Origin: Oscillospiraceae bacterium
Lineage (GTDB): Bacteria; Bacillota_A; Clostridia; Oscillospirales; Oscillospiraceae
Direction of reading: 5' to 3'
Assembly: GCA_017456105.1 (NCBI GenBank)
Contig: JAFTKA010000011.1
Coordinates: 3,162-67,161, forward strand
Length of the DNA stretch: 64,000 nucleotides
Shown here: piece by piece, positions 35,599 through 46,008 of the stretch
Layout of the letters: each line of letters starts with the position of its first letter
Position numbering within the stretch: position 1 is the stretch's first letter
The notes under the pieces: generated by a model
Told to the model about the DNA's origin: nothing
Database searches by the model: none
What the model saw: only the letters and a program-made list of their open reading frames with translations
Translations under genes and position numbers: made by a program

Positions 35599-36972
35599 TT
35601 ATTGGAGCTGTGTGATCACCAGATGGGCGGAAACCGGGCGGGTACCGCCTGCCAGGGGCGTGATGGTCAGAGCCGCGGCTGTGCCTTCGGGATTTCGGAC
35701 CGTCAAAACGGAGTTGACCGCAGTGGTCTCCACGATGGCCATACCGACGATTTGAGATACTCCTGTGGCACGGCCTACTACGGTATAGGCCAGATCCTCA
35801 CCGTTTAAGGTCAGGATCAGCTGGCCGGCTTCGGTTACACTGACCTGGAACAACACCTGGTAGGTGCCGATGTTACCAAGGGTGAAGGAGCTGGGTCCGG
35901 ACCGGGCGATGCCGGTGCCGCTGTTGGGACCGTCCTGGGGGAAGCTGACGTCGGTACCGGGAGCAACGGTGGCGGAGTTATCGGGGGGCATTAAGGCATA
36001 GAAATCCGCAAAGCCCAATACACCGCCGGCAGGCCCCTGGGGCCCGGTCTCACCAGCGGGACCTTGCGGGCCGACAGGACCGGTCTCACCCACAGGACCC
36101 TGCGGGCCGGTAGCACCGGTCAAACCGATAGGACCTTGCGGACCGGCAGGTCCGGTCTCACCCACAGGACCCTGCGGACCGACAGGTCCGGTCTCACCAA
36201 CAGGACCCTGTGGGCCGGTAGCACCGGTCAAACCGATAGGACCTTGCGGACCGACAGGTCCGGTCTCACCAACAGGACCCTGGGGGCCGGTAGCACCGGT
36301 CAAACCGATAGGACCTTGCGGACCTACAGGACCGGTCTCACCAACAGGACCCTGCGGGCCGGCGGGTCCGGTCAAACCGATAGGCCCTTGAGGACCGGCA
36401 GGACCGGTAGCACCCACAGGACCTTGCGGGCCGGTGGCACCGGTCTCGCCGGCAGGCCCCTGAGGACCCATAGGCCCGGTTTCGCCCACAGGACCTTGAG
36501 GCCCTACAGGCCCGGCTACACCGGCAGGCCCTTGAGGACCGGCAGGCCCGGCGATCCCGGCAGGGCCCTGAGGACCTACAGGACCTGCTTCTCCCGTAGG
36601 ACCCTGAGGCCCTACAGGTCCGGCCACACCGGCAGGCCCTTGAGGACCGGCAGGTCCGGCGATCCCGGCAGGCCCCTGAGGACCCACGGGTCCTGCTTCA
36701 CCCACGGGACCCTGAGGACCAACCGGTCCGGCGACCCCTTCAGGTCCTCTCGGACCAACAGGGCCTCTGACACCGGGAATACCCTGTGGACCGGCAGGTC
36801 CTCTCGGACCCACAGGCCCCTGGGGGCCGGCAGGCCCAGGGGGACAATTGCTGCAGCAGAAGCTGTGTTCCCGGTCTGCACAGGAAGATGTCTGGAAGCT
36901 GTGGCGTTTGCAGGAATTATCATCAAATTGGGGCGTAAAATTTCTATCATCGAAGCCGTTGTATCTGTTCAA
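35599..36972 (-). CDS. Collagen-like repeat protein, BclA-type (probable spore surface)
   Basis: This 457-residue protein has a short Cys-containing N-terminus (1-44), about 90 Gly-X-Y triplets (about 45-316) and a beta-rich C-terminal domain (about 317-457) like that of the BclA exosporium glycoproteins. The triplets are mostly GPQ, GPA, GPV, GET and GLT. BclA proteins form the hair-like nap on spores, with Thr residues in the collagen part glycosylated. The start codon is TTG with AGGAGGG upstream. A sigma-K-type promoter lies at 37067-37094. Repeat number may vary by recombination or assembly error. Confidence 0.88.
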
Positions 36973-37066
36973 TAGAATCCCTCCTCATATTAAGACTGCA
37001 TAACATCTTATGTACTTTCGACGGGCTTTGACACGGATACCTGTGCCTTGCCAGAAGGCATCGTCT

Positions 37067-37094
37067 TATTATATGATGCTGCAGGAATGGGTGT
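37067..37094 (-). promoter_or_regulatory. Sigma-K-type promoter of the collagen-like gene
   Basis: On the minus strand AC (37093-37094), a 17-bp spacer, then CATATAATA (37067-37075). This matches the B. subtilis sigma-K pattern AC-N17-CATAnnnTA at every fixed base. It gives a leader of about 90 nt before the TTG start. Confidence 0.55.
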
Positions 37095-37109
37095 GCGTGG
37101 AAAAGGGAA

Positions 37110-37137
37110 TTGTAAAATTTATTTTTTCTGCTATAAT
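37110..37137 (+). promoter_or_regulatory. Promoter of the thioesterase-TrkH-TrkA operon
   Basis: TTGTAA (37110-37115) and TATAAT (37132-37137), 16-bp spacer. Confidence 0.72.
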
Positions 37138-37168
37138 AAGAGCAAATAAAGAACACGAGGGATCCTTT

Positions 37169-37642
37169 ATGAGAGAAATGAAAACGGCTTCCCAGTCTCT
37201 TACGGAGCAACAATATATTATTCGCCCCTCCCACATCAACCACTACGGCCGTCTTTTTGGCGGTCAGCTTCTCAAGTGGATCGATGAGATGGCGGGTATC
37301 GTCGCCACCCGGCACAGCGGTGCAACAGTTACCACCGCTGCCGTTGACAATTTGCAGTTTCAGGCCCCGGCCTACGAGGGCGAGCTGATCGTGCTGCAGG
37401 GCAAGGTTACCGCGGTGGGACGGTCCTCCATGGAGATCCGGGTGGATACCTACCGGGAGGCACTGAGCGGAGAGCGGTCCATGATCAACCGGGCCTACAT
37501 TGATATGGTGGCCATCGACAGCACCGGCAGGGCGGTGGAAGTACCGGGCCTTTTGCCGGAAACGGAAGAGGAAATCAAGGAAATTGAGGCGGCTGTGAAG
37601 CGGAAACAAATGCGGAAACAGCGGCGTCAGGAGGGCTTTTAA
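37169..37642 (+). CDS. Hotdog-fold acyl-CoA thioesterase
   Basis: This 157-residue protein has the acyl-CoA hydrolase hotdog pattern INHYGRLFGGQLLKWIDEMAG, about residues 21-41. It resembles YciA/BACH-type thioesterases, which hydrolyse fatty acyl-CoAs. The first ATG with GAGGGA before it is 37169; the frame is open further upstream without a ribosome binding site. Its stop overlaps the trkH start by one base (TAATG), an odd partner for a K+ transporter. Confidence 0.87.
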   Translation: MREMKTASQSLTEQQYIIRPSHINHYGRLFGGQLLKWIDEMAGIVATRHSGATVTTAAVDNLQFQAPAYEGELIVLQGKVTAVGRSSMEIRVDTYREALSGERSMINRAYIDMVAIDSTGRAVEVPGLLPETEEEIKEIEAAVKRKQMRKQRRQEGF

Positions 37643-38964
37643 TGGGAGCAAACAAACGGTTTCGACTGAACGGACCGCAGATCATGGTATTGGGCTTTGC
37701 AGGTCTGATCCTTTTGGGAACGCTATTACTGATGCTGCCGGTTTCTTCCGCAGCCGGAAAGGTTACGTCCTTTGGTGATGCCTTGTTTACCTCTACCACG
37801 TCGGTTTGTGTTACGGGTCTGATTGTGCAGGATACCGGCACCTACTGGTCCACCTTTGGCCACACGGTAATCCTGATCCTCATTCAGATCGGTGGTCTGG
37901 GCGTGGTTACGGTGGCGGCCTCCTTTGCCATGATCTCCGGTAGACGGATCGGTCTGTTCCAACGCAGTACCATGCAGGAGGCGGTGGCTGCCCACAAGAT
38001 GGGCGGCATCGTGCGACTCACCGGCTTTTTATTAAAACTGACCTTTATCATCGAGGCTGTTGGTGCGGTGTTACTGGCACCGGCGATGATCCGGGATCTC
38101 GGTTGGGGAAGAGGCATTTGGACGGCCATATTTACTTCAATTTCGGCTTTCTGCAATGCGGGCATCGACCTATTCGGAGGCTATTCCTCCGCAACTGCCT
38201 ATGTGGGAGATCCGCTGGTCAACCTGACGCTGATGGCGTTGATCGTTATCGGCGGCCTGGGCTTTTTGACCTGGGACGATATCCGCACTAACGGCATTCA
38301 CCTGAAGCGTTACCGTATGCAGAGCAAGGTGATCCTGACGACCACGATAATCCTGCTTGTGGTGCCGGCCCTGTGGTTTTTCTTCCTGGAGTTCACGGAC
38401 CTGCCCTTGGGTGAGCGGATCTTTGCATCTTTGTTCCAATCTACAACCACCCGGACCGCGGGCTTTAACACAGTGGACCTGAACACGGTTTCAGAGCCGG
38501 GCAAGGTGATGATGATCCTCTGGATGCTGGTAGGCGGCTCACCCGGCTCTACCGCCGGTGGACTGAAGACCACAACCTTAGCGATTTTGGTGGGTTGTAC
38601 CATAGCGGTGTTCCGGAAGCGGGAGTCGCCCCAGTTCTTTGGCCGAAGGGTAGGTCAGGAGGTGGTCTCCGCTGCCTTGACCATTACGTTTATGTATGTA
38701 ATTTTAAGCGTTGGTGCAGCTATGGTGATCAGTAGGATCGAGAATTTACCAATGCTGACCAGCTGGTTTGAGACCGCTTCTGCGGTAGGTACAGTGGGCT
38801 TGTCTCTGGGTATCACGCCGGGGCTCAGTGCAGTGTCCAAGGGCATTTTGATTATTTTGATGTATTTTGGCCGGGTGGGCGGACTGACCCTCATTTACGC
38901 AGCCCTGTCCGGCACAAAACGGCAAGTGGGTAAGCTGCCCCTTGACCATATCACAGTGGGGTGA
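37642..38964 (+). CDS. ktrB: K+ uptake membrane subunit TrkH/KtrB
   Basis: This 440-residue protein has four pore-loop repeats of the TrkH/KtrB family: TSTTSVCVTGLIV, ISAFCNAGIDLF, TTTRTAGFNTVD and ASAVGTVGLSLG. Each carries the Gly of the selectivity filter. It forms the ion-conducting dimer for Na+- or H+-coupled K+ uptake. The gating subunit TrkA/KtrA follows after five bases. The size fits KtrB more than the longer TrkH. Confidence 0.94.
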   Translation: MGANKRFRLNGPQIMVLGFAGLILLGTLLLMLPVSSAAGKVTSFGDALFTSTTSVCVTGLIVQDTGTYWSTFGHTVILILIQIGGLGVVTVAASFAMISGRRIGLFQRSTMQEAVAAHKMGGIVRLTGFLLKLTFIIEAVGAVLLAPAMIRDLGWGRGIWTAIFTSISAFCNAGIDLFGGYSSATAYVGDPLVNLTLMALIVIGGLGFLTWDDIRTNGIHLKRYRMQSKVILTTTIILLVVPALWFFFLEFTDLPLGERIFASLFQSTTTRTAGFNTVDLNTVSEPGKVMMILWMLVGGSPGSTAGGLKTTTLAILVGCTIAVFRKRESPQFFGRRVGQEVVSAALTITFMYVILSVGAAMVISRIENLPMLTSWFETASAVGTVGLSLGITPGLSAVSKGILIILMYFGRVGGLTLIYAALSGTKRQVGKLPLDHITVG

Positions 38965-38969
38965 AAATT

Positions 38970-39617
38970 ATGAAACAGATTTTATTGATCGGCTTGGGCC
39001 GTTTTGGCAAGCATATTGCCAAGGAACTGAATTCCTTGGGTCATCAGGTGATGGCCGTGGACGATAACGAGGAGCGGATCAACGAAGCGCTTCCCTATAT
39101 CACAAACGGTCAGATCGGCGATGGCACCAACGAGGCCTTTTTGGACTCTCTGGGCATTCCCAATTTCGACGTGTGCATCGTTACCATTTCCGATGATTTT
39201 CAGGCGTCTCTGGAGTGTACGTACCTGCTAAAGGAGCTGGGTGCAAAGATGATCGTATCCCGTGCCGAGCGGGACGGCCAGGCAAAGTTTTTGCTTCGCA
39301 ACGGTGCAGACGAGGTGGTATACCCGGAAAAGCAGCTGGCAAAGTGGACGGCGATCCGCTTCAGCTCCGACCACATTCTCGACTATATCGCTCTTGACGA
39401 TGAGCATGCCATCTTTGAGGTGGATCTGCCCAAGAACTGGGAGGGAAAGACCGTCATTGAGGTGGACGTCCGCCGGAAATACGGCATCAACATTATGGGC
39501 ATTAAGAAGGACGGCAAGCTAAATCTGACCGTTACACCTGATACCCGCTTTGCTCCCGAGGACACCATTTTGGTGCTGGGTAAGTATAAGGATCTGCAGA
39601 AGTGCTTCCATATCTGA
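38970..39617 (+). CDS. ktrA: K+ uptake regulatory subunit TrkA/KtrA
   Basis: This 215-residue RCK protein has the Rossmann nucleotide-binding motif GLGRFGKHIAKEL (about 7-19), the acidic AVDDNEE after beta-2, and an RCK_C domain (about 135-215). It binds ATP/ADP or NAD(H) and c-di-AMP in related proteins and gates the KtrB channel. The ATG at 38970 follows GGGGTGA, which overlaps the ktrB stop. Confidence 0.94.
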   Translation: MKQILLIGLGRFGKHIAKELNSLGHQVMAVDDNEERINEALPYITNGQIGDGTNEAFLDSLGIPNFDVCIVTISDDFQASLECTYLLKELGAKMIVSRAERDGQAKFLLRNGADEVVYPEKQLAKWTAIRFSSDHILDYIALDDEHAIFEVDLPKNWEGKTVIEVDVRRKYGINIMGIKKDGKLNLTVTPDTRFAPEDTILVLGKYKDLQKCFHI

Positions 39618-39656
39618 ATTTTCCGGGAAAACCCGTTATGGTAAGGGCGTGATTCT

Positions 39657-41594
39657 ATGGAATATATCGAAGCCAAGGAAGAATATCTCCATGCGTTAAA
39701 GCAGGGTCAAAAGGAACAAAGGGCTTTGCACCTGCAGGGTAAAGATCCCCACCCGGCTGTGCTGGACGAGCTTTTAACGGATATGCCCGCACTGTCTACG
39801 GTGGATCTTGGCATTACCGAGATCCCCATAGAGCGGATCGTGGGCGTCAAATCCGCAGGCCGTATTACTGCCCTGACGGCGGGCTTTCTGCCCCTGATGG
39901 ACGAGGACAGCGAATTTGCTTATAAATGGGTGAGCCTTTTTGTGGCTCATATGTCCGAAACGGGCATCAGCGATCCTATTGAGTGCTATGAGTATCTGGG
40001 CAATTTCTATGTCCAGGAGGGCAACAAGCGGGTCAGCGTATTAAAATTCTGCGGTGCGGCCCGGATCTCTGCCCGGGTGCAGCGAATTTTACCGGAACGC
40101 AGTGAAGAACCCCAAATCAAGGCATATTTTGAATTTGTGGATTTCTATGCCGCCACCGGCATCTATGACATTCAGTTCCGCCGTCCCGGTGATTACGACA
40201 AGCTTTTGGCTTATCTTGGCAAAGAACCGGGAGAAAGCTGGACGGAGAACGAGCGTCGTGCAGTCCGGGCAGGCTTCCAGTATTTTAAGGAGGCCTTCGG
40301 AGCGGTAGCCACAGGACAGATGGATCTGCTTCCTGAGGAGGCACTGCTGCTGTGGCTGCGGGTCTATCCCTTCCGGGATCTGGGAAAGCACTCCGGTTAT
40401 GCCATTCGTAAGGCCCTCAGCCGGCTGAAAGAGGATATGATCTCCGTGGCCGAGCAGGTGAACGTGGACACGGAGGCGGACACGGAGCTGAGTGGCAACC
40501 TTTTGAGCAAACTCCTGCCTAACCACATTCAGGTGGCCTTCATCTATCAGATGGATACCTCCACCAGCAGCTGGGCCAGTGCCCATTATGCCGGTGCGGA
40601 ATATTTGCAGAAGAAGCTGGGCCGGCAAGTCAGTGTGTCCCATTATTTCCACGCAGACACCCCTCAGGAGACCGAGGAGAAGATAGAGCGGGCTGTTTCA
40701 GAGGGAGCACAGGCGGTGTTCACCACCACACCCAAAATGAGCCGTGCCGCCTTAAAGATGGCGGTCAAATACCCGAAGGTGCGGTTTTTGAACTGCTCGG
40801 TGGACGCACCCTATTCCAGCGTCCGCACCTACTACAGCCGGATCTATGAGGGCAAGTTTATTACCGGTGCGATCGCCGGTGCTATGGCAGAAAATGACCG
40901 GATCGGCTACATCGGCTCGTACCCCATTTTCGGCGTACCGGCCTCCATTAACGCCTTTGCCCTGGGTGCTCAGTTGACGAACCCCCGGGCAAGGGTAGAG
41001 CTGAAATGGTCCTGCACCCCCGGACGGCCTGCGGAGGAATTTATGGCCCAGGGAATCCGGGTGATCTCCAACCGGGATATCCCCGTGGGCGGCAATCCCC
41101 ACAGCTTCGGCGATTACGGCACGTATATGGTTAAGGACGGCACTTTACAGTCCCTGGGTTCTCCCTGCTGGGTGTGGGGCAAGTTCTACGTAACCGTGGT
41201 CCGCTCCATCTTGAACGGTAGCTGGGACAGAGGTAAAGATCCAAACCGTGCGGTCAATTACTGGTGGGGTATGGACAGCGGCGTTATTGACGTAACCCTG
41301 GCTGAGGGTCTGCCGGAGGGTGTATACGCTTTGGCAGAGATGCTCCGCAAGGGCTTAAAAGAGGGTACGATCGACCCCTTCCACAGAAGGATCGTGGATC
41401 AGTCCGGCCGGGTCATTAACCCCGGCGACCGGATTTTGTCTGCGGAAGAGCTGCTGCATATGGACTGGCTCTGCGAAAATGTGGACGGCAAAATTCCTGC
41501 TTTTGAAGAAATCCTGCCCTTTGCACAGGATACGGTGCGGGAGCTGGGCGTTTATCGGGATCAGATCCCCATGGAAAAGGAGGGATCGCTGTGA
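39657..41594 (+). CDS. Cytoplasmic BMP-domain protein with ParB-like N-terminal region
   Basis: This 645-residue protein has two parts. The N-terminal half (about 55-150) has a ParB/sulfiredoxin-like look: PIECYEYLGNFYVQEGNKRVSVLK, with EGNKR (121-125) in place of the ParB N-G-x-H-R motif. From about 290 it is a BMP/PnrA-type periplasmic-binding domain (VAFIYQMDTSTSSWASAHYAG, IGYIGSYPIFGVPASINAF), a family that usually binds nucleosides outside the cell. No signal peptide or lipobox is present, so it should stay inside. It begins 39 bases after ktrA and overlaps the phosphoesterase gene by four bases (GTGA). A ligand sensor is a reasonable guess. Confidence 0.8.
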   Translation: MEYIEAKEEYLHALKQGQKEQRALHLQGKDPHPAVLDELLTDMPALSTVDLGITEIPIERIVGVKSAGRITALTAGFLPLMDEDSEFAYKWVSLFVAHMSETGISDPIECYEYLGNFYVQEGNKRVSVLKFCGAARISARVQRILPERSEEPQIKAYFEFVDFYAATGIYDIQFRRPGDYDKLLAYLGKEPGESWTENERRAVRAGFQYFKEAFGAVATGQMDLLPEEALLLWLRVYPFRDLGKHSGYAIRKALSRLKEDMISVAEQVNVDTEADTELSGNLLSKLLPNHIQVAFIYQMDTSTSSWASAHYAGAEYLQKKLGRQVSVSHYFHADTPQETEEKIERAVSEGAQAVFTTTPKMSRAALKMAVKYPKVRFLNCSVDAPYSSVRTYYSRIYEGKFITGAIAGAMAENDRIGYIGSYPIFGVPASINAFALGAQLTNPRARVELKWSCTPGRPAEEFMAQGIRVISNRDIPVGGNPHSFGDYGTYMVKDGTLQSLGSPCWVWGKFYVTVVRSILNGSWDRGKDPNRAVNYWWGMDSGVIDVTLAEGLPEGVYALAEMLRKGLKEGTIDPFHRRIVDQSGRVINPGDRILSAEELLHMDWLCENVDGKIPAFEEILPFAQDTVRELGVYRDQIPMEKEGSL

Positions 41595-42241
41595 AGATAC
41601 TGGCATTGTCCGACGAGATCTACCCCGGCCTGTGGGAGCACTATGCCCCCGGAAAGCTGGAGGCGTATGACCTGATCATCTCCTGCGGCGACCTGAAGCC
41701 GGAATACTTATCCTTTTTGGTAACCATGGCAAAAGTGCCGTTACTTTATGTCCACGGAAACCACGATGAGCGATACCTGCAGAATCCCCCGGAGGGCTGC
41801 GACTGTATTGACGACAAGCTGGTGGTCTATAAGGGACTGCGGATCTTAGGCCTTGGGGGCTGCCGGAAGTACAATAACGGCAAATTCCACTTTACCGACC
41901 GGCAGATGCGAAGAAGGATCGCAAGGCTCCGGTGGAAGATCCGTCGCCACGGCGGCGTAGATCTGGTAGTTACCCACGCATCACCCTATGGCGTGGGCGA
42001 CGGGGAGGACCTGCCCCACCGGGGCTTTGAGGCTTTTTTGGATTTCATTGATAAGTATAAGCCCAAATACCTGCTCCACGGCCATATGCACCTGCAGTAC
42101 GGTATGGATCAGACAAGACAGCGGGAATACGGCGGCACGAAGGTGATCAATGCCTGCCAAAAATATGTGCTGGAGATCCCCGACGGACAGATTCCCACCA
42201 CTGCCAAAAAAGGCGATATTGACTATAGCTACTACGGATAA
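41591..42241 (+). CDS. Calcineurin-like metallophosphoesterase
   Basis: This 216-residue protein has the metal motifs GD (33-34), GNHDE (56-60), VTHASP and LHGHMH. The usual N-terminal D-x-H is replaced by SDE (7-9), so one metal site is altered. It probably cleaves a phosphodiester or phosphomonoester. The start is GTG and overlaps the stop of the BMP-domain gene, so the two products are likely to work together. Confidence 0.87.
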   Translation: MKILALSDEIYPGLWEHYAPGKLEAYDLIISCGDLKPEYLSFLVTMAKVPLLYVHGNHDERYLQNPPEGCDCIDDKLVVYKGLRILGLGGCRKYNNGKFHFTDRQMRRRIARLRWKIRRHGGVDLVVTHASPYGVGDGEDLPHRGFEAFLDFIDKYKPKYLLHGHMHLQYGMDQTRQREYGGTKVINACQKYVLEIPDGQIPTTAKKGDIDYSYYG

Positions 42242-42256
42242 TGTTCGTTAGAATTT

Positions 42257-42284
42257 GTAGGGGCGATTCATGAATCGCCCCTAC
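42257..42284. repeat. Palindromic repeat family A, copy 3
   Basis: GTAGGGGCGATTCATGAATC continuing to CGCCCCTAC, a perfect 28-bp palindrome. Confidence 0.82.
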
Positions 42285-42302
42285 GTCCGCAGGAATCTGT
42301 AC

Positions 42303-42349
42303 AGAAAAAGGGCGTGTTGCAAATTTTGCAACACGCCCGAATTGTTTTT
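42303..42349. terminator. Bidirectional terminator between phosphoesterase and MmgE/PrpD genes
   Basis: GGGCGTGTTGCAAA pairs with TTTGCAACACGCCC, with T-runs on both strands. Confidence 0.82.
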
Positions 42350-42400
42350 GTAGGGAACGGATATATCCGCTCCGCGGAATGCATTTATGCATTCCCTACA
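42350..42400. repeat. Palindromic repeat family B, copy 4
   Basis: GTAGGGAACGGATATATCCG followed by GGAATGCATTTATGCATTCC and CTACA. Confidence 0.78.
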
Positions 42401-42414
42401 GCCTCAATCAAGGA

Positions 42415-43758
42415 CTATGCGTTAGACGGAAACTCCTTTAATGCCCGGTTGACACCGGCAACCACGGCTGACAGCTTCTGCTCCGGATCCCGGGTCAATA
42501 GGTCGAGCAAATACTGCTGACCTTCAGATGACAGGAAGGGTGCTGTGATCCGACGGAACTTTTCCGTGATCCAGGGCATATCCACCTTGTCCGTAGCTTC
42601 GCCGTTGGCGGCATACACGGAGCTTTGATAGGTCGTTCCGTCCTTAAGCCGGAACTCCACCCAGGCCAGTCGCTTTTCCGGGAACTGGGCGTCCATCTCC
42701 GGGTCTACCACAAAGGAGAGCCGTTCCATCACGGACTTTACACGCTGGTCGTCCAGGGCCTGGTTGCAGACCTGCCGGAAGCCCACATCTCCGTGGACAA
42801 TGGCGGAAGCCACCGGCCAGGCGATGTTATACTGGGCCTCGTCCGTGTCCTTGGGAACAATCTTGCTGAGCCGTGCCGCAGAGGAGAAGGTGTGCACCTT
42901 TACAGACTCTACCTGTTCCCAGGTAAAGCCCTTGGCCTGCATCAGCTCCACAGAGGCCTGTATGGGCTGATGACCCCAGCGGCAGCAGGTATAGGGCTTG
43001 AAATAGAGATTCAGGATCTCGTAGGTCTTTCCCAAAGAATCCGTAAGGTGCTGATACGCAGGAAGCTCCAAAAGATGGGTCTTTGCGGTCTCTCCGGCCA
43101 AAGTGTCCAGCACCGCCAAAGCACCCACCATCGCACCGAAGGGGACGCCGTCCTTGTTCATGGAGGGGATCTCCACAGACCGCATCACAGGCACCAAGGG
43201 AGCGTGGAACTCCGCCATGGAAAGAGCGGTATTCAGCTGCTCACGGGTCATACCGAAGATCCGTCCTGCACCGGCGGCGGTGGCTACAGCACCGTAAGTG
43301 CCGGTGGAGTGGAGGAAGCCGTAATGATCCTGCAGAGCAAGACCCATACGGACAGCCACATCGTAGCAGACTACCAGCGTTGTCAGATACTCCCGATAGG
43401 AAATATTCTGCTGAAGCCCTGCGGCCATTACACCGGCAATAAAGGATGTACCGGGGTGGCCCTTGATCATATTGTGTCCGTCGTCGATATCAAAGGAATT
43501 GGAGGCGTGGCCCATGGCCATCGCAGCACCCAAAAAGCCGAAGGTATCGTCGCAGCCGGGCACAGGGATCGAACCGGGTGCGGTATGCTGAGCCAAACGC
43601 TTGCCGTTTTGGAACTGCTGACCCCGGCTTCCCAAAATCAGAGCCATCATCAGGTCAATGCCGCATACTACCGCACGATCCTGAACATCTTTGGGAAGAT
43701 CTTCCCAGCGGGTGTTCAGCACATAGTCTTCCACCCGGTAATCTGTCTTAAATTCCAT
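42415..43758 (-). CDS. MmgE/PrpD family protein
   Basis: This 447-residue protein belongs to the family of 2-methylcitrate dehydratase (PrpD), MmgE and cis-aconitate decarboxylase. The family pattern GHASNSFDIDDGHNMIKGHPGTS is at about 85-107, and RWGHQPIQASVELM lies near 265. Many members of this family have other, unknown substrates. It begins one base after the stop of the opine dehydrogenase-like gene. There is no prpB, prpC or citrate gene nearby, so methylcitrate breakdown is unlikely. Confidence 0.85.
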   Translation of the reverse strand: MEFKTDYRVEDYVLNTRWEDLPKDVQDRAVVCGIDLMMALILGSRGQQFQNGKRLAQHTAPGSIPVPGCDDTFGFLGAAMAMGHASNSFDIDDGHNMIKGHPGTSFIAGVMAAGLQQNISYREYLTTLVVCYDVAVRMGLALQDHYGFLHSTGTYGAVATAAGAGRIFGMTREQLNTALSMAEFHAPLVPVMRSVEIPSMNKDGVPFGAMVGALAVLDTLAGETAKTHLLELPAYQHLTDSLGKTYEILNLYFKPYTCCRWGHQPIQASVELMQAKGFTWEQVESVKVHTFSSAARLSKIVPKDTDEAQYNIAWPVASAIVHGDVGFRQVCNQALDDQRVKSVMERLSFVVDPEMDAQFPEKRLAWVEFRLKDGTTYQSSVYAANGEATDKVDMPWITEKFRRITAPFLSSEGQQYLLDLLTRDPEQKLSAVVAGVNRALKEFPSNA

Positions 43759-43759
43759 A

Positions 43760-44995
43760 TCAGCGGTTGTAAACGCCTTCGTTCAGATAAGCAAGCAGCT
43801 CTTCCTTGCTCATACCGTCGATGCCCAGGTAAGAAAGGCTGTACTTACTGTCGAAGAAGCTCTTCTTGTGCATAGCACCGGCCAGGACGATCATGGAGTC
43901 AATGATGGGGGTGGGAACATTGTACTGTACGCCCAGGTCGTGGTAGACCTTGCAGCCGATGGGCACGTCCTCGGTCATGTAACGGTGGTGAATGGTGTTG
44001 GGGCCGGTATTGCCTTCGTTGGAGGGCTGGTCCAGGGGGAACACCACATTGTCGTTGCCGTTCTCGTCCAGACCCATGTACTCCTGGGTCAGCACGCTGC
44101 GGCGGGAGAAGAACATCTCGTACTTATACTCGGGGCAGCCAACGCCGATGGCCTTGGCAAGAGCAATTTCCTCATTGTAGAACTGGTACTGCACCTCGCA
44201 GATGGAGGGACACAGACCGTGGGAGTACATGGAGTAGTTGGTGCGGTCGTGGCCACCGAAGATCACACCCCAGTTTTCCATGGTGGAAACACCCAAAACG
44301 GTGGCAGGTACGTGAATGACGGGGTTGACGTTGGCAAAGTCCACGTCCAGCACGGTATTGGCAATGGCAGCACCGTCGCCCTTGGTTACGGCGTCCATGC
44401 AGGGCAGGTAGTTGGCAGATTCAATGAATGCGGGGGTGTCGGTCATGGGCAGAGCTGCACCACGCAGAGTGATAGCTCTGTACTTGGCACTGACGTGGGG
44501 GAACTGGAAATTGCCGATGGTCTCGATCCGGGTGCCGTAGGGCATGGAGGACCAACCGCCAATAATGACCTTCTTGGTGCAGCCGGCTTCCCGCATCATC
44601 TTCCGCAGCAGCAGAGCACCAAAGTTGTCGGCAAATACGTGGACCACCATACCGTCCTCCAGATGGGGGATCAGCTCCCGGAAGGTGCCTTCGTGGCCCC
44701 AGGAACCCATGGCGACGATGATCTGACCTGCACCCTTAACGGCAGCGGCCATATCGGTGGTTACCAGGTCGAAAAATGCCCGGCCGGAACGCTCAAAGCA
44801 GTACTTGTTACGCTGAATACCGTCGAACAGGATACCGGTCTTGTCCAGATCCTTCAGGGATTTTGCTGCAAAGGGCATAGCGTCCCAAAGACGTACTTCT
44901 GCACCTGCCAGCTTACAGTCAGCAGCACAGGTCTTGCCGCCTGCACCGCCGCCCAGCACTGCGATGGGCATATTCTTCAAATATTCCATACTCAT
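43760..44995 (-). CDS. Opine/octopine dehydrogenase family protein
   Basis: This 411-residue protein has an N-terminal NAD(P)-binding motif AVLGGGAGGKTCAADCKLAG (about 12-31) and a C-terminal octopine-dehydrogenase-type domain (PSNEGNTGPNTIHHRYMTED at about 320). Family members couple an amino acid to a keto acid by reductive condensation, or cleave the product. AAAGGAG decides the start at 44995. It is divergent from a LysR gene and followed directly by the MmgE/PrpD gene, so a catabolic pair induced by its substrate is likely. Confidence 0.85.
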   Translation of the reverse strand: MSMEYLKNMPIAVLGGGAGGKTCAADCKLAGAEVRLWDAMPFAAKSLKDLDKTGILFDGIQRNKYCFERSGRAFFDLVTTDMAAAVKGAGQIIVAMGSWGHEGTFRELIPHLEDGMVVHVFADNFGALLLRKMMREAGCTKKVIIGGWSSMPYGTRIETIGNFQFPHVSAKYRAITLRGAALPMTDTPAFIESANYLPCMDAVTKGDGAAIANTVLDVDFANVNPVIHVPATVLGVSTMENWGVIFGGHDRTNYSMYSHGLCPSICEVQYQFYNEEIALAKAIGVGCPEYKYEMFFSRRSVLTQEYMGLDENGNDNVVFPLDQPSNEGNTGPNTIHHRYMTEDVPIGCKVYHDLGVQYNVPTPIIDSMIVLAGAMHKKSFFDSKYSLSYLGIDGMSKEELLAYLNEGVYNR

Positions 44996-45046
44996 AAAAA
45001 ACTCTCCTTTTTTTAGGCCTGATTCGTTCAGGCTATTTACAATCGC

Positions 45047-45074
45047 ATTATAATATAGTACAATCATTTTGAAA
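45047..45074 (-). promoter_or_regulatory. Promoter of the opine dehydrogenase operon
   Basis: TATAAT (45047-45052) with a weak TTTCAA -35 (45069-45074), 16-bp spacer. A weak -35 fits a LysR-activated promoter. Confidence 0.5.
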
Positions 45075-45084
45075 AACGAATAAT

Positions 45085-45094
45085 TCCGATCGGA
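45085..45094. promoter_or_regulatory. Possible LysR operator
   Basis: TCCGATCGGA is a perfect palindrome in the divergent promoter region, flanked by AT-rich sequence (ATAATTCCGATCGGATATAT). It lies just upstream of the -35 for the divergent operon. Confidence 0.5.
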
Positions 45095-45123
45095 TATATC
45101 AAAATTTTCGATAAGGAGAACCT

Positions 45124-46008
45124 ATGGAAGTAAGGAATTTGGAGACCTTCATTCGGGTGGCGGAGTTGGGTAGTGTTACCAAGGCCGCCGAGGAAATGGG
45201 CTTTGTCCAGTCCACCGTCAGCATGCAGATCCGGCAGATGGAGTCAGAACTGGGCTATCCGCTTTTTGACCGGATCGGCAAGCGGGTATCCCTGACTGCT
45301 CTGGGCGAGGAATTTTTAGCCAGTGCCTATGAAATGGTCAATATTATGGACAGGGCGGCTGCCAAGAAGGACAGCAGCGAAATGCGAGGTACATTGCGGA
45401 TCGGCGTGCTGGAATCGCTGCTTTTTAGTAACCTTTTGGAGGTGCTGCCTCAATTCAAGGAGAAATTTCCCAAGGTGGATTTGCGGCTGAAAATGGGACA
45501 GATGGGAGAGCTGATCCAGCAGCTAAAGCAGAACCAGCTGGACCTTGTGTATTTGTCCTCAGATTTAAATACGGACCGGGAGCTGACCTGCTGCTGCCGC
45601 CGTCAGGAAAAAATCGTATTCATCTGCAGTCCGGAGCACCCCTTTGCAGGAAGGAAAAAGATCTCCCGGGAAGAGCTGTTCACGGAGGCCTTTGTGGTAA
45701 CGGAGCGGACGGGACTTTGCTACGGCAGACTGCGTACCCTGGCCGCCCAATGCGGAGCGACAGTGTCCGACTCTGTGGAGGTGGACTCTACTGTGGCCAT
45801 CGTGGAACTGGTCCGTAAGGGTATGGGCGTGGCGTTCCTGCCGGAGTATTCGGTGGAAAAGCACATAAAAGCCGGTATTCTTTCAAAGATCCCGGCAGAT
45901 ATTCCGGAGCAAACCTATTTTAGTCAGATCCTCTGCCACAAAAAACGCTGGCTGTCCCCCTTGATGACCGGCTTTGTGGAAATGGTAAAACAGCATCAAA
46001 AAATGTAG
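45124..46008 (+). CDS. LysR-family transcriptional regulator
   Basis: This 294-residue protein has the N-terminal winged helix (1-60; LETFIRVAELGSVTKAAEEM, then QSTVSMQIRQMESELG). The effector-binding domain (about 88-290) follows. It is divergent from the opine dehydrogenase and MmgE/PrpD genes and likely activates them on sensing their substrate. GGAG precedes the start. The TAG stop is supplied by a family A palindromic repeat. Confidence 0.93.
   Translation: MEVRNLETFIRVAELGSVTKAAEEMGFVQSTVSMQIRQMESELGYPLFDRIGKRVSLTALGEEFLASAYEMVNIMDRAAAKKDSSEMRGTLRIGVLESLLFSNLLEVLPQFKEKFPKVDLRLKMGQMGELIQQLKQNQLDLVYLSSDLNTDRELTCCCRRQEKIVFICSPEHPFAGRKKISREELFTEAFVVTERTGLCYGRLRTLAAQCGATVSDSVEVDSTVAIVELVRKGMGVAFLPEYSVEKHIKAGILSKIPADIPEQTYFSQILCHKKRWLSPLMTGFVEMVKQHQKM

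Follow-up and report, generated by a model that had tools for sequence, protein, structure and literature searches.

A signal-less ParB/sulfiredoxin-fold and BMP fusion protein paired with a phosphoesterase: a putative cytoplasmic module of Clostridia

Introduction

BMP-type domains normally serve to catch nucleosides outside the cell. The present work deals with a protein of 645 amino acids in which such a domain, lacking any export signal, is fused to an N-terminal domain with a predicted ParB/sulfiredoxin fold. Its gene, followed by that of a calcineurin-like metallophosphoesterase, was found in a stretch of 64,000 nucleotides, hereafter the window, of an Oscillospiraceae bacterium (GCA_017456105.1, contig JAFTKA010000011.1, positions 3,162-67,161, forward strand). 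The fusion protein and the phosphoesterase proved to be near-constant partners in the related genomes searched.

The described proteins nearest to the BMP part are AtzT (6pi5, 6pi6, 6pii) and a Brucella protein (3s99), which are purine-binding proteins of ATP-binding cassette (ABC) systems. AtzT binds guanine with a Kd of 0.11 μM and adenine with one of 2.5 μM (PMC6834077). These proteins are exported, whereas the fusion carries no export signal, is joined to the ParB-like domain and lacks the pocket glutamate. Unlike proteins of the AtzT and 3s99 type, it is not accompanied by genes for an ABC permease or ATPase, none being found among the window's open reading frames (ORFs) at 36000-46000, five of which were scanned with Pfam. 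Another BMP-fold protein, 2hqb from Bacillus halodurans, is titled a transcriptional activator of comK and thus named as a regulator, but it shares only 16-18% identity with the fusion, over the BMP part.

ParB, Noc, KorB and PadC have in common with the fusion the fold of residues 49-147 and a GxxR sequence at the position of the P motif. The fusion differs from them in having no PF02195 match, no recognised helix-turn-helix, an attached BMP domain and a phosphoesterase as constant partner. Sulfiredoxin and SerK/SbnI belong to the fold class predicted for the same domain. The catalytic cysteine of sulfiredoxin sits in a GCHR motif, and its place is taken by N or H in the fusion family. The partner phosphoesterase shares the GD, GNH, H and GHxH metal motifs with MPPED2 and other calcineurin-like phosphoesterases, although its first motif is mostly D-x-E and not D-x-H and its relationship to MPPED2 is remote (E 7.9e-6).

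In recent work, the ParB-CTPase fold has come to be recognised as a module of general use for binding nucleoside triphosphates (NTPs). The published survey of the fold took Pfam PF02195 as the domain query (PMC12704722). PF02195 does not match the fusion family, and the words BMP, PnrA, substrate-binding, periplasmic and phosphoesterase are absent from the survey's main text. A literature search, in which few subscription papers and preprints were within reach, turned up no account of the fusion or of proteins related to it. The component folds are known ones; their combination in one protein with a near-obligate partner appears to be undescribed in the literature searched. Family members were seen in the sources under the names ABC transporter binding protein and hypothetical protein, which are probably misleading. 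The near-constant joint occurrence of the two proteins in many gut Clostridia points to an unstudied two-protein module.

Results and Discussion

Pairing of the fusion and phosphoesterase genes

At least 7808 relatives were returned by a protein search with the fusion protein. The best 80 of 574 related loci from named genomes were used, and the phosphoesterase gene was detected by tblastn directly downstream of the fusion gene at 76 of them; the ORF caller recovered it at 69 of these 80 loci, which belong to subfamily A1 (see below). Spacing could be measured in 75 pairs, with starts placed by profile: 68 overlap, and the median is an overlap of four bases. The two ORFs of the window also overlap by four bases (GTGA), as first annotated.

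Co-occurrence was counted in two samples of genomes. In the 200 genomes of one family, both genes were present in 83, the fusion alone in none, the phosphoesterase alone in one and neither in 116 (Fisher p 1.7e-56, kinship not being corrected for). The 391 genomes of the class sample gave 38 with both, one with the fusion only, three with the phosphoesterase only and 349 with neither, a phosphoesterase being counted at E < 1e-50 after two weak matches (G623 and G633, about 1e-15) had been dropped. The coupling to a phosphoesterase claimed in the initial annotation of the window is thus supported well beyond the window's own genome, both by adjacency and by the presence of the partner in 83/83 and 38/39 fusion-bearing genomes.

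The arrangement of the two genes varied. The 41 fusion genes of the class sample comprised 16 in tandem with the phosphoesterase, 20 convergent with it, one with the phosphoesterase upstream, three unlinked, among which two are second copies, and one partnerless, the distances assuming a fixed gene length. Among nine genomes with a partnerless fusion locus, eight had the phosphoesterase elsewhere, in three cases beside a second fusion copy. In all nine genomes of subfamily C the phosphoesterase is retained on a contig other than that of the fusion, and no second fusion copy was found in them at E up to 1e-60. No neighbour was common to all unlinked phosphoesterases; by eye, ORFs resembling alcohol dehydrogenase and FMN reductase were noted beside several of them. 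The exceptions to pairing were a fusion without its partner in G556, G341 and G657, a mere fragment of the partner in G292, and, in G036, G637, G765 and G788, a partner without the N-terminal domain of the fusion (searched at E up to 10); G036 is cut off by the end of its contig 453 bases upstream. Because completeness is not given for the genomes searched, such absences may be assembly gaps. The retention of the partner by C proteins with a reduced BMP part, and in convergent and unlinked cases, suggests that the ParB-like domain and the phosphoesterase form the core of the module.

In the phosphoesterase itself, four of the five metal motifs (GD, GNHD, H129, H143 and GHxH) are invariant in 127/127 rows, some of which are near-duplicates. 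The first metal motif, D-x-H in its classical form, reads D-x-E in 114 of the 127 rows and D-x-I in the window. The solved relatives, MPPED2 and the lariat debranching enzyme, are too remote (E 7.9e-6 at best) for a substrate to be read from them. A role in defence was set aside. With PADLOC the fusion had no match at E up to 1, and the phosphoesterase matched one candidate-only model (PDC-S10, E 7.8e-17).

Domains and location of the fusion protein

A cytoplasmic location of the fusion protein is supported by its sequence. The four in-frame codons 5' of the ATG (TCT, GAT, CGT and GGG) are not start codons and the fifth is the stop codon TAA; a longer, exported form is therefore impossible, and the hidden signal peptide or alternative start for which the initial annotation had allowed is excluded. 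Over the N-terminal 45 residues the hydropathy maximum (window of 15 residues) is 0.13, the controls, two BMP lipoproteins from related loci, reaching 3.25 and 3.45. No value above 2.0 was obtained at the N-terminus of any of 139 family rows (maximum 1.68). The protein consequently lacks the export signal and lipobox of BMP/PnrA binding proteins, in agreement with the first description of it. Genes for BMP-type ABC systems were found near 3 of the 23 loci of subfamily B.

The ParB/sulfiredoxin-like character of the N-terminus had been proposed from the EGNKR motif alone. A structure model of residues 1-285 (predicted local distance difference test, pLDDT, 93) matched ParB/Noc, sulfiredoxin and SerK/SbnI over residues 49-147, and such a fold is thus supported by modelling. 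Residues E121, G122, K124, R125 and S127 are identical in 159/159 aligned members, as is E112, and E86 and K90 are found in 158 of these rows. Position 123 is N in 138 rows and H in 21, so that no sulfiredoxin cysteine is present, and G122 and R125 supply the GxxR of the P motif, in a register with ParB taken from hhalign and the fold ranges rather than from a residue-level structural alignment. Neither the fusion protein nor its family gave a Pfam match to the ParB domain PF02195, and hhalign of the N-terminal domain against 26 sequences of ParB type that ten related genomes supplied was not significant; the ParB assignment accordingly rests on fold and motif. Residues 148-270 had no informative structural match, and no Pfam DNA-binding domain was found in the fusion protein. 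A database search with the N-terminal alignment yielded short relatives and partial copies, with no new architecture among the 120 matches listed. DUF4032, considered as possible kin of the N-terminal domain, was set aside; PF13224 was found in 0/3 related genomes.

The BMP domain, annotated from about residue 290, was matched by Pfam Bmp (PF02608) at residues 292-452 (E 1.1e-18; 67.7 bits, the cut-off being 24.1), and the same family was present in 29/29 A1 members. Structural similarity to BMP proteins extends over residues 289-614, approximately, in a model of the whole protein whose confidence is modest (pLDDT 73.6). The pocket varies across the family and is eroded in subfamily C. By analogy with known BMP proteins, sensing of a nucleoside or nucleotide by the fusion protein is plausible.

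Subfamilies and gene neighbourhoods

Subfamilies were labelled (A1, A2, B, C, D) at first by score and neighbourhood. In a tree of 99 N-terminal domains, for which 20 of the 80 A1 rows were taken, each of the five groups stayed together, four with good support and A2 weakly (89/59); the window protein belongs to A1. In the 83 fusion-bearing genomes of the 200-genome sample, the copies, classed by reading of the matches, were of A type in 71, of B type alone in 11 and an N-terminal fragment in one (G191); eight further genomes had plain BMP proteins only. Loci L081-L088 and L129-L158, which are duplicates or have short flanks, were left out of the ORF-neighbour, hydropathy/pocket and tree/motif row sets. 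The neighbour scans took in 90/122, 85/101 and 131/139 of the listed ORFs.

In subfamily B, xpt lies within 2 kb of the fusion at 6 of 23 loci, at four of them within 30 bases, and the gene order at L170 and L171 is guaB, phosphoesterase, fusion. In subfamily D the fusion is convergent with the phosphoesterase, and at 7 of 20 loci a DUF402 gene immediately precedes it, with Pfam confirmation for six. DUF402 covers nucleoside tri- and diphosphatases and also an archaeal RNase (PMC11602121). At these seven D loci (L240:265-774 and six others) the DUF402 gene overlaps or abuts the start of the fusion. The neighbours in A2 lean to MalK-type ATPases and PfkB kinases; an MsmK/UgpC-type sugar ABC ATPase gene was seen beside the A2 fusions L107, L108, L117, L118, L120 and L168, within 165 bases in the first five. 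Subfamily C proteins have 544-591 amino acids and an altered, shortened BMP part, and in two relatives of about 455 amino acids (L159:2967-4328 and L160:3202-4584) most of the first BMP lobe is gone while the ParB-like domain is intact. In one genome (L104:4441-6481) the fusion gene was found divided between two reading frames.

Proposed mechanism and alternatives

Given the predicted fold, the invariant motif, the missing export signal and the near-obligate pairing, the explanation we favour, although our confidence in it falls somewhat short of even, is that the fusion is a cytoplasmic switch, binding NTP and sensing a ligand, which acts together with the phosphoesterase in signalling by nucleotides or in their metabolism. 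In such a conserved two-protein module of Clostridia, the ParB/sulfiredoxin-fold domain would most likely bind an NTP through its GxxR loop, residues 148-270 would form a helical connector between the two domains, and the BMP clamshell would most likely shut on a small ligand, for which a purine or purine-like compound is the leading guess. The second protein would be a metal-dependent phosphoesterase tied to the fusion. At its simplest, the mechanism would have closure on the ligand and the binding of NTP jointly decide whether the fusion engages the phosphoesterase, and hydrolysis of a nucleotide-type phosphoester would then track the intracellular level of the ligand. In favour of this reading, a change of the GxxR arginine abolished NTP binding in proteins of the ParB fold (PMC12704722); the binding of purines by AtzT and the xpt, guaB and DUF402 genes near B and D loci count on the same side. 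We infer the NTP binding, the ligand, the contact between the proteins, the substrate and the direction of control.

A broader and less secure proposal, which we consider possible, is that these proteins represent a new class of ParB-fold switches, passed over by the published survey, in which a captured periplasmic-type sensor would report an intracellular nucleobase or nucleotide and gate a dedicated phosphoesterase. The ParB-like domain and the phosphoesterase would be the core, the sensor being free to change its ligand or vanish, in a widespread module of nucleotide signalling or homeostasis in gut Clostridia. Should the fusion and the phosphoesterase act in the manner proposed, they would offer a concrete way into a nucleotide-linked regulatory system of abundant gut bacteria.

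Several observations weigh against the switch. No purine families occur near A1, the window's own subfamily, or A2 among the 25 neighbour families shown for each, and among the scanned B neighbours genes for MurT, UDP-glucose dehydrogenase and P-type ATPases are commoner than purine genes. The idea of a purine ligand is therefore tentative, the genes linked to nucleotides being neighbours of the fusion in subfamilies other than A1. The strongest support for a core without the sensor comes from two of the nine C cases, L159 and L160. Moreover, 17 of 28 purified ParB-fold proteins did not bind NTP, which slightly lowers our confidence in both the narrower and the broader form of the switch.

The best of the alternatives, though an unlikely one, is an enzyme pair: like SerK and SbnI, the ParB/sulfiredoxin-fold domain would be a small-molecule kinase, its substrate would be carried by the BMP domain, and the phosphate would be taken off again by the phosphoesterase. 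Both SerK and SbnI have this fold and are among the structural matches listed, the near-invariant E86, K90, E112 and E121 are candidate catalytic residues, and a kinase with its phosphatase would account for the near-obligate pairing. However, both rank below ParB and Noc in the structural searches, and the two C proteins that have lost most of a BMP lobe keep the phosphoesterase. Less probable still is a LacI-like transcription regulator, whose BMP domain would sense the ligand and whose ParB-like and helical domains would load on DNA, with the phosphoesterase as partner or target gene. The ParB-fold proteins KorB, Noc and VirB act on DNA (PMC12704722), and the title of 2hqb fits such a role, but the uninformative helical region and the lack of a Pfam DNA-binding domain, together with a phosphoesterase gene that is often convergent or unlinked, speak against it.

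It is very improbable that the fusion descends from a transporter binding protein, has been kept for a minor role after loss of the signal and lies next to a phosphoesterase by accident; its BMP domain is homologous to exported proteins and the pocket varies and erodes in subfamily C, but the N-terminal motif is invariant and the phosphoesterase co-occurs even when unlinked. That the fusion senses nucleotides in connection with Ktr potassium uptake and cyclic di-AMP, as the initial annotation had supposed from a fusion gene lying on the same strand 39 bases 3' of the end of ktrA, is hardly credible, since KtrA was found at 0/80 related loci, 71 of them with at least 1 kb upstream, and KtrB gave a single weak match (24%), about 3.3 kb downstream of the fusion in L070. 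What stands of that overall interpretation is the cytoplasmic location, the ParB/sulfiredoxin fold and the phosphoesterase partnership, and the potassium and cyclic di-AMP link is not supported.

The gene row in the window

Five genes on the same strand form a row with the fusion in the fourth place, bounded by a promoter-like site and a terminator-like hairpin from a consensus scan (Table 1). The scan found 6 promoter-like sites against 4.1 expected, and 5 terminator-like sites against 5.6, in neither case an excess over chance.

Table 1. Coordinates in the window of the gene row and of the parts of the fusion protein
Feature	Position	Strand	Remark
Promoter-like site, head of gene row	37110..37137	+	consensus scan
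Acyl-CoA thioesterase (4HBT)	37169..37642	+	ORF opens at 37010; internal ATG start chosen by judgement
KtrB/TrkH-type potassium transporter	37642..38964	+	local neighbour, not conserved part
KtrA-type TrkA protein	38961..39617	+	local neighbour, not conserved part
In-frame stop codon TAA 5' of fusion gene	39642..39644	+	
Fusion protein gene, 645 amino acids	39657..41594	+	
ParB/sulfiredoxin-fold domain, residues 47-147	39795..40097	+	predicted fold
EGNKR, residues 121-125, GxxR inside	40017..40031	+	G122 and R125 in 159/159 rows
Helical domain, residues 148-270	40098..40466	+	structural search uninformative
BMP clamshell domain, residues 289-614	40521..41498	+	nearest are 3s99 and AtzT
C-terminal tail, residues 615-645	41499..41591	+	kept in A1 alignment
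Calcineurin-like metallophosphoesterase gene	41591..42241	+	near-constant partner
Terminator-like hairpin, 13 pairs, end of gene row	42310..42338	+	longest stem among 5 sites

The terminator hairpin is flanked by the palindrome GGGGCGATTCATGAATCGCCCC and two short stretches (42260-42281, 42350-42369 and 42377-42396), each of which occurs as a single exact copy in the window. Additionally, a collagen-like protein of 457 amino acids with GPxGPQ repeats is encoded beside the gene row on the opposite strand (35599-36972, - strand).
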